30,938 bases of DNA, taken from IMG/VR virus record IMGVR_UViG_3300049491_000460, positions 1-30,938 of that record, one strand, 5' to 3'. Shown in pieces: positions 12,915 to 18,398 of the stretch (its first letter is position 1; every line of letters starts with the position of its first letter). The position numbers and the translations under genes were made by a program. The DNA is from a virus. The notes beneath the pieces were generated by a model that saw only the letters and a program-made list of their open reading frames with translations, did no database searches and was not told the DNA's origin.

Positions 12915-13766
12915 ATGGCACTGAAGACTGTGATCGCAAGCCTTGATGATGTTGATGAAGTGTTTCGTGAACACTACGTCGAAACCAAGGACCCAAAAGA
13001 CCCTGCAAAGGTTCAATTTGTTCTTGGCATTGAAGGGTCTATCGATCCTCTCCCTGGTGTCAAAGCTCTTCGAACAGAAAATGGTTCATTTCGAATCAAA
13101 CTTCGTGATACTGAACAAAAGTACGGCAAGCTCGAAGCGTTTAAAGACATGGACCCCGCGGAGGTTCTTTCTAAGCTTGATCGCATCGCCGAACTCGAAC
13201 TTGCAGCTGGCGGTAAGCTTGACGATAAAGCGATTGAAACGATCGTTGAAAGCAGAATCAAAACCAAGACTGCACCTCTTGAGCGGCAACTTCAGACTGT
13301 CACGCAAGAACGTGATACATTCAAAGTTCAAGTCGAAGAGTTTAGCACTCGTGACAAAAAGCGTTTGGTCGAAGACGATGTTCGTGCAGCCGCTGTCAAG
13401 ATGAAGATGTTGCCTGAAGCTGTTGAAGACGCAATCATGTATGCTGACCGCGTGATGGAAGTTAACGCGGAAGGTGTGGTTAGCGTCAAAGACAAGGTTG
13501 GGTTTACGCCAGGTTTGGATGTTGCATCTTGGCTAGGTGATATGCAAGCAAAACGTCCTCACTGGTGGCCTGCCTCCGCTGGGGGTGGTGGGCGAGGGAA
13601 TAGCGGCGGTGGAAATGGTGTTGGCGGGCCAAACCCGTGGAGTAATGAGAACTGGAACATTACTGAACAAAACCGTATCTACAAAGAAGACAAGAAAAAG
13701 GCTGAGCAGTTGGCAACTAATGCTGGTACGAAATTGGGAGGTACTCGCCCGGTAGCCAAAAAATAA
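12915..13766 (+). CDS. Scaffold-like head assembly protein
   Basis: A 283-residue protein with TGGAGA upstream of the ATG. The layout fits a phage scaffold: long charged helices (about 60-150, LEAFKDMDPAEVLSKLDRIAELE, then a coiled-coil-like QTVTQERDTFKVQVEEF), a short globular segment, then a Gly/Asn-rich linker (about 220-240) and a C-terminal NPWSNENWNITEQNRIYKED. That last motif is seen in scaffold-like proteins beside capsid genes. It would guide capsid assembly and leave or be cleaved. Normally the capsid gene follows directly; here 3.4 kb of other genes intervene. The stop codon lies within a 16-bp repeat found again before the capsid gene. Confidence 0.75.
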   Translation: MALKTVIASLDDVDEVFREHYVETKDPKDPAKVQFVLGIEGSIDPLPGVKALRTENGSFRIKLRDTEQKYGKLEAFKDMDPAEVLSKLDRIAELELAAGGKLDDKAIETIVESRIKTKTAPLERQLQTVTQERDTFKVQVEEFSTRDKKRLVEDDVRAAAVKMKMLPEAVEDAIMYADRVMEVNAEGVVSVKDKVGFTPGLDVASWLGDMQAKRPHWWPASAGGGGRGNSGGGNGVGGPNPWSNENWNITEQNRIYKEDKKKAEQLATNAGTKLGGTRPVAKK

Positions 13767-13809: not shown

Positions 13810-13828
13810 GTCAACAAGCGGGGTGATA

Positions 13829-14044
13829 ATGCGAATCTTTTGTTTAACTTCTTTCAAGGACGGTACGCGCCTCTTTGAAAATGGCGACGTTTGTACGTTG
13901 ACTGACATCGACGGGCAGCGTTTCATTGACAATGGCTGGGCTGCTGTTGAAGGTGAGGAAGTCAAAGCTGCGCCAGGCGCTCCAACAGTGGACTTGAACG
14001 TGCACGGCTCTTTTCTTGGCGTCGTTGATAGTAAGGTTTCCTAA
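13829..14044 (+). CDS. Small unknown protein in the head module
   Basis: A 71-residue protein; the ATG at 13829 has GGGGTG about six bases upstream, and an in-frame GTG at 13823 is rejected because it lies in that site. The sequence (FKDGTRLFENGDVCTLTDIDGQRFIDNGWA) suggests a small SH3-like beta unit, followed by an Ala/Pro-rich linker and a short end. It may be a small virion or neck-type protein. No family is recognised. It opens the block between the two 16-bp repeats. Confidence 0.65.
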   Translation: MRIFCLTSFKDGTRLFENGDVCTLTDIDGQRFIDNGWAAVEGEEVKAAPGAPTVDLNVHGSFLGVVDSKVS

Positions 14045-15021: not shown

Positions 15022-15579
15022 GTGCCGGTCATTATCTTTCCGCTGCGAAACAAGCTTCGTGGGGCCGGCAACCTCATCTTTTTGCAACAACGTCCACGAT
15101 CTACTGGTGGTCGGCGTGTGGTGTTGTCTCCTGTACTACCATGGACGCGAATGACGCGCCCTCCCAGCCTAAATTTTAGTCGGTATGATCCAGCACCGTT
15201 GCTGAGTCAGACGTGCGGTCTAAACTATGGTCTTTGCGCACTGAACATCAAACAGCCGGAAACCTTTTCAGCGGCTCAAAGTGTCAACAACGGAACGCAA
15301 CCTGCTGTTGTTCACGCAATTAAACCAATGCCGTTTGTGCGATACACACTTACGGGCCGCACGCTTGATAATACTGGCGGCACTTTGCCGTTTGCGCCCG
15401 TTGATTTATACACAGCAGGAGACAAGCGATGGATAGGCAGTGCAGTGTCAGAAGCCGACGGAACTTATCGCATTCATACGGCCATGCGACAGCCTGCGCT
15501 GCATTTTGTCGTTGCGTATAAACCTGGTTCTCCTGATATAGCTGGAATCACGGCAACCTCGTTACAGGCAGACACATAA
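15022..15579 (+). CDS. Virion-type protein with carboxypeptidase-regulatory-like domain
   Basis: A 185-residue protein with GTG start and AAAGGG six bases upstream. The C-terminal half (about 105-180) has the pattern of a CarboxypepD_reg-like beta sandwich: TLTGRTLDNTGG, FAPVDLYTAGDKRWIGSAVSEADGTYRI, then ALHFVVAYK. Such domains are common on phage capsids and fibres as surface adhesins. The N-terminal half is basic and Pro-rich with no clear fold. It overlaps the next gene by one base. It forms a unit with the HxH-repeat gene and may anchor or cap it, which is inference. Confidence 0.65.
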   Translation: MPVIIFPLRNKLRGAGNLIFLQQRPRSTGGRRVVLSPVLPWTRMTRPPSLNFSRYDPAPLLSQTCGLNYGLCALNIKQPETFSAAQSVNNGTQPAVVHAIKPMPFVRYTLTGRTLDNTGGTLPFAPVDLYTAGDKRWIGSAVSEADGTYRIHTAMRQPALHFVVAYKPGSPDIAGITATSLQADT

Positions 15580-16871
15580 TGGCGTCGAACGATGTCATAT
15601 TATGGAGTACAGCGCTTCCCTCTCAACGTAATGTCATACTTCGCAACCCAAATATGTGGGAAGCGTACCTTGGTGTTGCCAATGCTAAGCACACGCACAA
15701 TGCCAGCGCTTCCAACCTGATAACTGATAGCGTACTCGCCCTTGACGACTCGTTGCATAACCATGCAGCTGATAATATCGTTTTGGCCGCTGGAGTCGCG
15801 CTTACTGTTGATGAAGCGGTGCACAACCACGCGGCCGACGCACTAGTTTTAACCCTCGCGTCTTCACTTGCTCTTGCTGACGCAACTCACGCACACAGCG
15901 TTGACGCGCTCACGTTAACGGCGGAAAGTCAACTTGCGCTAGCAGATGCACTACACGCGCACACGGTCGACAGCGAGGTGTTAACATCGGACACGGCCCT
16001 TGCTGTAGCTGAGGCATTGCACAGTCACACCGCGGATGTGCAAGTGCTATCTACCGGCACGGAGCTCTCCCTTGCCGACGCCTTGCACGACCACACAGCA
16101 GAGCCTCTTGGGCTGTCAACGGCGCTTGTACTGACGATAGCCGAGGCCCTACACGGGCACGCAACGGACGCCATTGCATTGTCAGTGATGAGCGTGCTGG
16201 TGATGACTGATACAGTGCACGGGCACACTAGCGACGCGTTAGACCTGTCTACATCCACGCTTCTCGCAGTGTTCGATGCTGTGCACGCACACGCAGCCGA
16301 TGCGCCCTTGCTGGCGATCGTGCTTACGCTGGCGCCTGCAGATGCTACGCATGGGCACAGTGCCGAGAATCTGACACTTGATACACTTCTGGCCATTGGC
16401 ATCGACAGCGCAACACATGCGCACAGAGCCAACAACCCTGGGCTAACCTCTGACTCGTTGCTGGCAATTGAAGAGGCCTTGCACGGACATCTATCAGACG
16501 ACACGGCGCTAACGACGTTGGTGTCACTAGCCGTAGCTGAAGCGTTGCACGCGCACGCTTCGGACCTTGTGAACATTGATGCTGGTCTGCGGCTCACAAT
16601 TGCTGAAGCTACACATGACCAGACCACAGAAATAGTGACATTGACGGTGTCAGTAACACTGACAGTCAATGACGCGAATGCGGCACACATTGCAGATACC
16701 ATCACTCTTACTGCCTCAATTTTCTCAATAGCATCGCTAGTGACCGGCGTAACTGTGGTTACGGTACAAATCATAGGCAACACTGTGATACCCGTATATG
16801 TTGCCGAAGCAGCGGCACCTGTGTATTCAGCTGGCTTCAGCGATTTCGATATTCGTGGCACTCTTCACTAA
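15579..16871 (+). CDS. Tandem 22-residue HxH-repeat protein, putative head fibre or surface protein
   Basis: A 430-residue protein. Residues 38-389 are sixteen back-to-back repeats of exactly 22 residues with no indels. Each opens with H-x-H-(A/T/S)-(A/V/S)-(D/E), has alternating hydrophobics in the middle and ends (L/V/I)-x-(L/V)-(A/T)-(D/E)-A-(L/T/V). Fourteen copies keep HxH; the fifteenth has HDQ and the last AAH. HxH rows in trimeric phage fibres such as the T4 gp37 tip bind iron, so a metal-lined trimeric fibre or solenoid is a reasonable model, not a demonstrated one. The N-terminal 37 residues (MWEAYLGVANAK) and C-terminal 40 (TVIPVYVAEAAAPVYSAGFSDFDIRG) are non-repetitive caps. DNA copies differ widely at synonymous sites. 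It sits in the head region. Confidence 0.75.
   Translation: MASNDVILWSTALPSQRNVILRNPNMWEAYLGVANAKHTHNASASNLITDSVLALDDSLHNHAADNIVLAAGVALTVDEAVHNHAADALVLTLASSLALADATHAHSVDALTLTAESQLALADALHAHTVDSEVLTSDTALAVAEALHSHTADVQVLSTGTELSLADALHDHTAEPLGLSTALVLTIAEALHGHATDAIALSVMSVLVMTDTVHGHTSDALDLSTSTLLAVFDAVHAHAADAPLLAIVLTLAPADATHGHSAENLTLDTLLAIGIDSATHAHRANNPGLTSDSLLAIEEALHGHLSDDTALTTLVSLAVAEALHAHASDLVNIDAGLRLTIAEATHDQTTEIVTLTVSVTLTVNDANAAHIADTITLTASIFSIASLVTGVTVVTVQIIGNTVIPVYVAEAAAPVYSAGFSDFDIRGTLH
15690..16745 (+). repeat. Sixteen 66-bp coding tandem repeats
   Basis: The DNA encoding the HxH repeats keeps a 66-bp period for the whole stretch. Copies are protein-level similar but nucleotide-diverged (for example His codons flanked by AGT, GCG, GAC or GGG), so they are not recent slippage products. 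Confidence 0.8.
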
Positions 16872-16877
16872 AAATAT

Positions 16878-17207
16878 ATGACTGAAATCACACGTAAACG
16901 CGGTGACACATACCCGATTGACATCGCTGTAACACGCGACGGCGTTGCTCTTGATATTACGGGTTGCACTTTTGTTCTTACAGTTGATCCAAGTAAGGCG
17001 CCATTGGACGATACAGCTAATTTATTTCAGCTTGCTGGCGTCATTGTCAACGGTTCCGCTGGCACGGTGAGTTTCACGCCTACAGCAGGCGATACTGACC
17101 ACGTTGGGAAGTTTTTTTACGACGTGCAAATGACTGACACATCGGGTGCAATACGTACCATCGCCGCTGACAAATTTACGCTTGTGCAGGATATCACCAA
17201 GTTGTAA
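16878..17207 (+). CDS. BppU-N-like beta-sandwich protein
   Basis: A 109-residue protein. KRGDTYPIDIAVTRDGVALDITGCTFVLTVDP, then GVIVNGSAGTVSFTPTAGDTDHVGKFFYDVQMTD and FTLVQDITK, match the pattern of BppU N-terminal-like domains, which plug host-binding fibres into a virion. Here it directly follows the HxH-repeat gene (six-base gap), so it may attach that fibre, though by position this would be on the head, not a baseplate. The ATG lacks a clear ribosome site and follows an A-rich spacer, so coupling to the upstream gene is likely. Confidence 0.7.
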   Translation: MTEITRKRGDTYPIDIAVTRDGVALDITGCTFVLTVDPSKAPLDDTANLFQLAGVIVNGSAGTVSFTPTAGDTDHVGKFFYDVQMTDTSGAIRTIAADKFTLVQDITKL

Positions 17208-17372: not shown

Positions 17373-18398
17373 ATGGCTTCCGGAACCACTGCTGTAGCTG
17401 ACGTCGTCGTACCCGAACTCTTCGGTCCGTACGTTCAGCAACTCACTGAAGAAAAGTCGCGCCTGATTCAGTCTGGCGCTGTTGCTCGTGATTCTTTTCT
17501 GGACAGTTTTCTTGCTGGTGGTGGTCTGACGATCAATGCGCCATCTTGGAAAGACCTGGAAAATGACGCAGACAACGTGTCAAGCGATACAACTGGCACC
17601 AGCACTCCGAACAAAATCGGTTCTGCTGATGAAATCGCAGTTCGTTTGTCGCGAAACAACAGCTGGGCGACTGCTGATCTGAGCGCTGCACTTGCTGGAT
17701 CGGATCCGGCGAATGCGATCGCATCGCGTGTTGCAGATTACTGGGTGCGTCGTGCTCAGGCTGCATTCGTTGCAGTAATGACCGGAATCTTTGCAGACAA
17801 CGCGGCTGCTCCTTCTGCTACTGAACACGTTCAAAACGACATGACGTTTGACGTTTCCGGCAGTAGTTTTGTTGATGGTGTTACCAACTTCAGCGCTGAA
17901 TCGTTTATCGATGCTTGCCTGACGATGGGCGACAGCATGGAAAGTCTTGGCATGATCATGGTCCACTCAGTGGTCTATGCTCGTATGCAAAAGAACAACC
18001 TCATCGACTTCATTCCTGACTCACAAGGTCAAATCAACATTCCGACCTTCTTGGGCCGGATGGTGATTGTTGATGACGGTATGCCCGTGACTTCGGGTGT
18101 TTACCAGTCCTGGTTGTTTGGCGCAGGTGCAGTTCGTCTGGGTGTCGGCGCGCCGAAAACGCCTACTGAAGTTCTCCGCATTCCGTCGGCAGGTAACGGT
18201 GGTGGCCAAGAACAACTCTACAATCGTGTCGAGTGGTGCTTCCACCCGGTTGGTAACAAGTATGCCGGTACCCCTGCATCTGGTGGTCCGTCGAATGCTG
18301 CGACGAGCAACAACTTGGCGGCTGCGGGTTCTTGGCAGCGAGTGTTCACTGAACGTAAACAGATCAAGATCGCGCGACTCATTACCCGCGAAGCATGA
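17373..18398 (+). CDS. Major capsid protein
   Basis: A 341-residue protein with AGGAG eight bases before the ATG. It has the features of a phage major capsid protein of HK97 fold: VVVPELFGPYVQQLTEEKSRLIQSGAV at the N-terminus, LARNN-like RLSRNNSWATADLSAALAGSDPANAIASRVADYW in the long helix, SFIDACLTMGDSMESLGMIMVHSVVYARMQK and FLGRMVIVDDGMP in the P/A domains, and YNRVEWCFHPVGNKY near the C-terminus. It forms the icosahedral shell. The gene lies in its own leader-terminator setting (stem-loops before, hairpin terminator after), as expected for the most abundant product. Confidence 0.9.
   Translation: MASGTTAVADVVVPELFGPYVQQLTEEKSRLIQSGAVARDSFLDSFLAGGGLTINAPSWKDLENDADNVSSDTTGTSTPNKIGSADEIAVRLSRNNSWATADLSAALAGSDPANAIASRVADYWVRRAQAAFVAVMTGIFADNAAAPSATEHVQNDMTFDVSGSSFVDGVTNFSAESFIDACLTMGDSMESLGMIMVHSVVYARMQKNNLIDFIPDSQGQINIPTFLGRMVIVDDGMPVTSGVYQSWLFGAGAVRLGVGAPKTPTEVLRIPSAGNGGGQEQLYNRVEWCFHPVGNKYAGTPASGGPSNAATSNNLAAAGSWQRVFTERKQIKIARLITREA

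Follow-up and report, generated by a model that had tools for sequence, protein, structure and literature searches.

What does a protein built of sixteen exact 22-residue units, most of them opening with His-x-His (HxH), do in the head-gene block of a phage? The question is raised by a 30,938-base IMG/VR virus record, analysed at its full length (the window), in which the gene for such a protein, P0001, lies between the scaffold and major capsid genes (Table 1). An earlier note, which had correctly placed the gene there, proposed a metal-stabilised head fibre or decoration by analogy with T4 gp37.

Genomic context of the repeat gene

The portal, Mu-F, scaffold and capsid genes of the window fit Nipunavirus-type siphophages. 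In NP1, R7M and MMDA13, the gene at the scaffold position directly precedes the capsid gene, whereas approximately 3.6 kb with six genes separates the two in the window. The six-gene block is therefore an insertion relative to those relatives.

Table 1 Features of the scaffold-capsid region of the window
Feature	Coordinates	Strand	Evidence
Scaffold protein (context)	12915..13766	+	phrog_206, E 9e-43
P7, small 73-aa protein	13823..14044	+	phrog_2616, E 1e-4; in 34 of 80 P6 loci
P6, conserved partner of 125 aa	14047..14424	+	AF2 pLDDT 95.2; closest solved fold Sf14 gp31
186-aa protein of no family, encoded between P6 and P0001	14452..15012	+	Family searches
185-aa protein	15022..15579	+	Carboxypeptidase-regulatory-like (Ig-type) stretch at residues 109-152, weak, E 0.049, below cut-off
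P0001, HxH-repeat protein, 430 aa	15579..16871	+	ORF call; homologous repeat proteins in >20 IMG/VR loci, E 1e-14 to 1e-89
Repeat array, sixteen exact 22-residue units, residues 38-389	15690..16745	+	Unit alignment
109-aa protein with BppU_N domain, directly after the repeat gene	16878..17207	+	PF10651, 25.9 bits against a cut-off of 23.1
Major capsid protein (context)	17373..18398	+	phrog_247; at most 72% identity to Nipunavirus-type MCPs

P7 occupies its usual cassette position immediately ahead of P6. The 186-aa protein, for which no homologue was found at 1e-4 among the P6 loci, is the variable part of the cassette. The gene of the 185-aa protein overlaps the start of the repeat gene by one base, and its homologue was found in only one (L210) of the P6 loci searched. 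The BppU_N protein sits between the repeat and capsid genes. BppU_N is an N-terminal domain found in lactococcal phage baseplate proteins; in another locus (L110), the repeat gene is followed by a 357-aa protein whose start is a homologous BppU_N domain.

The repeat array is exact and old

P0001 consists of a 37-aa N-terminus, the repeats and a 41-aa C-terminal tail. Its units follow one another without an indel, and 14 of the 16 start with HxH, the 15th reading HxQ and the 16th AxH. When the protein was shuffled 5,000 times, at most 3 HxH fell at period 22 in any phase, against the 14 observed, and a DNA pattern of three HxH spaced 66 nt, which occurs 12 times in the window, was found 0 times in 100 shuffles. 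The copies share a mean identity of 46% in DNA and 35% in protein. By codon position, the identity is 0.29 (near random) at position 3, 0.50 at position 1 and 0.59 at position 2. Because third positions are saturated and the first two conserved, the array is old and has been maintained by protein-level selection. Both the indel-free array and the long-term selection on the protein, rather than recent duplication, had been put forward in the earlier note and were upheld.

The repeats have a pI of 4.6, with no Lys, two Arg and 30 His among 352 residues. No family match for P0001 was obtained at E 0.01 in Pfam or PHROG. An antisense open frame of 278 codons (16025-16861, minus strand) lies opposite the repeats and is probably a by-product of their codon make-up.

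Relatives of the repeat protein

Searches with short peptide patterns of P0001 alone found no loci, as short patterns of a diverged repeat make poor bait. IMG/VR was scanned with a DNA pattern of four HxH spaced 66 nt, and simple His-rich and out-of-frame repeats among the matches were excluded by eye and length. With low-complexity sequences removed, two protein types were present among the matches listed, namely PTR tail repeats (SHTHAIADVTGLQTALDGKAA) and the P0001 type (HAHTADNVTLTQxHxLAVADAL). The unit consensus of the wider family is HAHTADNVTLTQ.HVLAVADAL. Homologues were found in IMG/VR (Table 1), and among 50,697 phage records the family was found only in Microcystis phage Mae-JY22. 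By sequence similarity, the family is widespread among the uncultured phages of IMG/VR, and it is unnamed.

No publications on Mae-JY22 were found. In its record (L002/L126, PP438414.1), the annotated start of the repeat gene (39942-41362) is too late; the repeat frame reaches the record end and includes a Laminin_G-like stretch, and the gene is probably cut by the linear record ends.

The number of repeats ranges from about 3 to 27 per relative. In most relatives at least 100 residues precede the first repeat, compared with only 37 in P0001, and Laminin_G_3 was detected in 4 of 44 relatives and CBM96 in 1 of 44. Since the N-terminus of P0001 is so short, any adhesive part may reside in neighbouring gene products. 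Past the 22-residue array, many relatives (L164, L177, L186, L184, L203, L212 and also L002) carry short C-terminal repeats of the ExRTLxVxxExRTxxV type, which P0001 does not. Four relatives with few or no HxH (L156, L162, L171 and L174) have in common a C-terminal segment, WEAQTGLxxxSLxDLEKAFYD, that is probably a separate domain.

HxH repeats of period 22 have been reported from the tail fibre of Alteromonas phage R22Y, where they are putative iron sites (PMC11705849). The statement in the earlier note that no example is described therefore goes too far as regards the motif. No head-located HxH fibre was found in the literature searched. The R22Y gp12 repeat is of the PTR type (PF12789 match 5.8e-24, used as positive control), which is like P0001 in having HxH at an exact 22-residue spacing and proposed iron sites (PMC11705849). 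However, the second half of the PTR unit reads LQxALDGKA, compared with LTQxHxLAVADAL in the P0001 type, and PTR repeats occur in tail-fibre genes, unlike the P0001 gene in its head block. No PTR match was found in P0001 or the window, 2 of 26 family segments matched at best with E 0.018, and hhalign gave a probability of 4% between the PTR profile and P0001-type repeats. At the level of profiles, the P0001-type repeat is different from the PTR repeat.

The repeat gene is linked to P6

P6 homologues co-occur with the repeat gene in most of the HxH-pattern loci (at least 18 hits, Mae-JY22 included). The reverse search by P6 returned 80 loci, 63 of which contain the repeat family; among uncultured P6 loci with 5 kb on either side, the proportion was 30 of 32. 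The two genes lie on the same strand in all loci, with a median gap of 433 nt. Mae-JY22, the sole phage with either gene among the 50,697 records, has both, and a P7-like gene adjoins the pair. P6 was also detected in three MAG contigs (Rubrivivax, a Betaproteobacterium and an Anaerolineae), with the repeat protein nearby in two of them in a closer-alignment scan, and no plasmid relatives were found.

The cassette has as neighbours genes for terminase, portal and MCP that belong to many different PHROGs and families, and P6 identity reaches 88-89% between loci whose other genes barely resemble those of the window. P6 of this identity amid dissimilar loci, together with the varied neighbour families, points to module transfer between head-gene blocks. 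These comparisons point to P7, P6, the variable genes and the repeat protein as a transferable cassette among the head/packaging blocks of unrelated phages.

Histidines occupy replaceable core-type positions

Masking positions 1 and 3, we collected 476 units, which come from 60 proteins. His occupied positions 1 and 3 in 388 and 335 units, Gln in 33 and 59, and Leu in 30 and 47, counts in which His-free members are under-represented because the proteins were picked by an HxH-built model. The other residues were mainly aliphatic or Thr; Lys/Arg were absent, and acidic residues made up 0 and 1.3%. Besides HxH, whole proteins were of the QxQ (L205 and L192), LxL (L168, L193, L204 and L208) or IxI/V (L173) type. 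Members in which HxH is swapped throughout for LxL, QxQ or IxI/V (L168:6612-9224, L193:2549-4903, L205:5714-7960 and L171:8391-10406) keep the remainder of the 22-residue unit, a natural core swap. Unit positions 8, 10, 16 and 18 are hydrophobic, positions 6 and 20 are acidic, and Asn is the most frequent residue at position 7 (43%).

The absence of Lys/Arg and the replacement by Q, L, I, V or M at positions 1 and 3 indicate that the His pairs point into a core, where histidine is replaceable. Inside individual proteins the two positions did not co-vary significantly (108 of 2,000 shuffles reached the observed value), as each protein is nearly uniform and the concordance lies between proteins.

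By this substitution pattern, HxH takes core-facing positions in the P0001 family as in T4 gp37, so the analogy drawn in the earlier note holds for the placement of histidine. The T4 gp37 tip, the R-pyocin fibre and P2 gpV likewise have buried-core HxH pairs in an elongated phage protein (PMC6116203). The analogy does not extend to spacing or sequence: HxH motifs are irregularly spaced in gp37 (32, 14, 37, 14, 9 and 9 residues) compared with exactly 22 in P0001, and the P0001 repeat model gave no match to gp37 at E 10 and found R22Y weakly (E 0.0012). Moreover, the solved gp37-type HxH fibres are trimeric, whereas P0001 is known from its sequence and a monomer model.

The existence of QxQ and LxL relatives means that the repeat does not require metal and that metal is no general property of the family. 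Iron is bound by HxH pairs in phage and pyocin trimers of known structure (PMC6116203), which makes metal plausible for HxH-type repeats; for members such as P0001, we consider metal binding and its absence about equally probable.

P6 resembles whisker and fibre adaptors

The AF2 model of P6 (pLDDT 95) best matches the neck chain K of Sf14, which is gp31 (Z 9.9, 2.7 A over 107 residues; Foldseek probability 1.00), followed among solved structures by the Bas63 connector (Z 9.6). Further fold matches are the 7-7-1 tail fibre chain A, the HFTV1 tail and the GP4 fibre adaptor, and the fold also occurs in baseplate or arm proteins of A511/phi812. The predicted model thus has the same fold as the neck-whisker and fibre-adaptor proteins Sf14 gp31 and GP4 gp80, and by fold P6 is an adaptor-type protein of fibres or whiskers, which may attach at the neck.

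In Sf14 (Mooglevirus), the gp30 and gp31 proteins form neck whiskers (PMC11821841), and their genes sit between the portal and capsid genes. Unlike the window, Sf14 has no HxH-repeat gene annotated in the portal-capsid interval, and the likeness of P6 to gp31 is one of fold, not sequence, the P6 sequence profile giving no match in the PDB. Sf14 gp30 was also considered as a relative of the BppU_N protein and rejected, as no match was found.

Predicted fold of the repeats

For P0001, AF2 monomer prediction gave a single-chain, right-handed beta-helix-like model with three short strands per 22-residue coil, at a pLDDT of only 63, and a trimer was outside the reach of the monomer job. In VIA-align, this low-confidence model matched the Pam1 tailspike (Z 27.3, 3.3 A, 377 residues), Sf6 (Z 24.1) and phi29 gp12 (Z 23.8). 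PDB sequence searches with P0001 and with the repeat alignment gave no usable match.

Each chain might accordingly fold by itself into a right-handed parallel beta-helix, with one coil per unit and the two His columns as internal ladders, a reading to which we assign somewhat less than an even chance. The three short strands per coil of the low-confidence model liken P0001 to the tailspikes Pam1, Sf6 and P22, and the repeats of one relative (L165) exceed the Pfam cut-off for NosD, a beta-helix family (27.6 against 23.6 bits). Twenty-two residues are a typical coil length, Asn or aromatic ladders occur within known beta-helices, and the prevalence of Asn at position 7 recalls a short beta-helix turn. 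However, the model has low confidence and comes from a monomer-only job, Foldseek with it found nothing below E 0.018, and P0001 differs from those tailspikes in its exact repeat length and its His pairs. Departures from the 22-residue spacing are to 24 or 20 in 28 cases and odd in 8 (p 0.001), suggesting that positions 11-15 are constrained by a strand or hairpin; free beta-helix loops would not favour shifts of two. Phage-protein HxH metal sites of known structure are also trimeric. A single-chain helix would lack three-chain six-His sites, yet it concerns the fold and is compatible with a fibre role; for the geometry of the His stack, a trimer and a single-chain ladder are both possible.

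Proposed role of P0001

We give roughly even chances to P0001 being the long, repeat-built shaft of an adhesive appendage close to the head or neck, fibre- or whisker-like, that is delivered by the cassette and has P6 as its attachment helper. Such a shaft would be part of the virion, and its attachment site, oligomeric state and metal are proposed in the same conditional sense. The cassette would enter the head/packaging blocks of many unrelated tailed phages, and P6, with its gp31-like fold, would probably help to anchor the shaft close to the neck or head. In every 22-residue unit, short beta-strands would turn residues 1, 3, 8, 10, 16 and 18 toward the core, and acidic turns at 6 and 20 would make the shaft surface strongly acidic. 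The variable N-terminal domain of many relatives, lectin-like or carbohydrate-binding in some, would be the likely adhesive part. In HxH types, the stacked His may coordinate transition metal in pairs, stiffening the shaft, with Gln or Leu filling the same core in relatives.

The head-fibre guess of the earlier note gains from the appendage-type protein, the neck-whisker fold of P6 and the occurrence of the cassette in head-gene blocks of unrelated phages; it is weakened by the fact that tail-fibre adaptors have the P6 fold too. Because that fold is found in the GP4 and 7-7-1 adaptors, attachment at neck and tail are both possible, and the A511/phi812 baseplate or arm proteins share it. P0001 could thus be the shaft of a tail fibre or tail spike, with its place in the head block incidental: head-block genes can encode tail parts, HxH motifs, like PTR repeats, are characteristic of tail fibres, and a gene a few places further on in Mae-JY22 resembles a tail spike (phrog_2234). 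We consider tail attachment unlikely, as the cassette lies repeatedly among the genes for terminase, portal and MCP in unrelated phages and the two top fold matches of P6 are neck or connector proteins. A free, non-structural protein acting in the infected cell as metal sponge or DNA mimic would agree with the acidic, Lys-free and His-rich composition of the repeats. The His residues are nevertheless at core-type positions where Leu or Gln can replace them, and the linked adaptor-fold gene, the lectin-like domains and the structural-gene context make this explanation very improbable.

A wider reading, which we advance tentatively and regard as doubtful, is that the head- or neck-proximal shaft represents a large undescribed family of neck/head fibres spread by the cassette among unrelated phages, with an exact 22-residue core ladder able to take up a row of at least a dozen metal ions in HxH members, or made of Gln or Leu layers in others. 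If this is true, a family that is unnamed, yet common among uncultured phages, would constitute a widespread neck/head appendage system exchanged across unrelated capsids. The natural swap among HxH, QxQ and LxL would then offer a ready comparison for the role of metal, be it in stiffness, in folding or in the supply of iron to or from the host.
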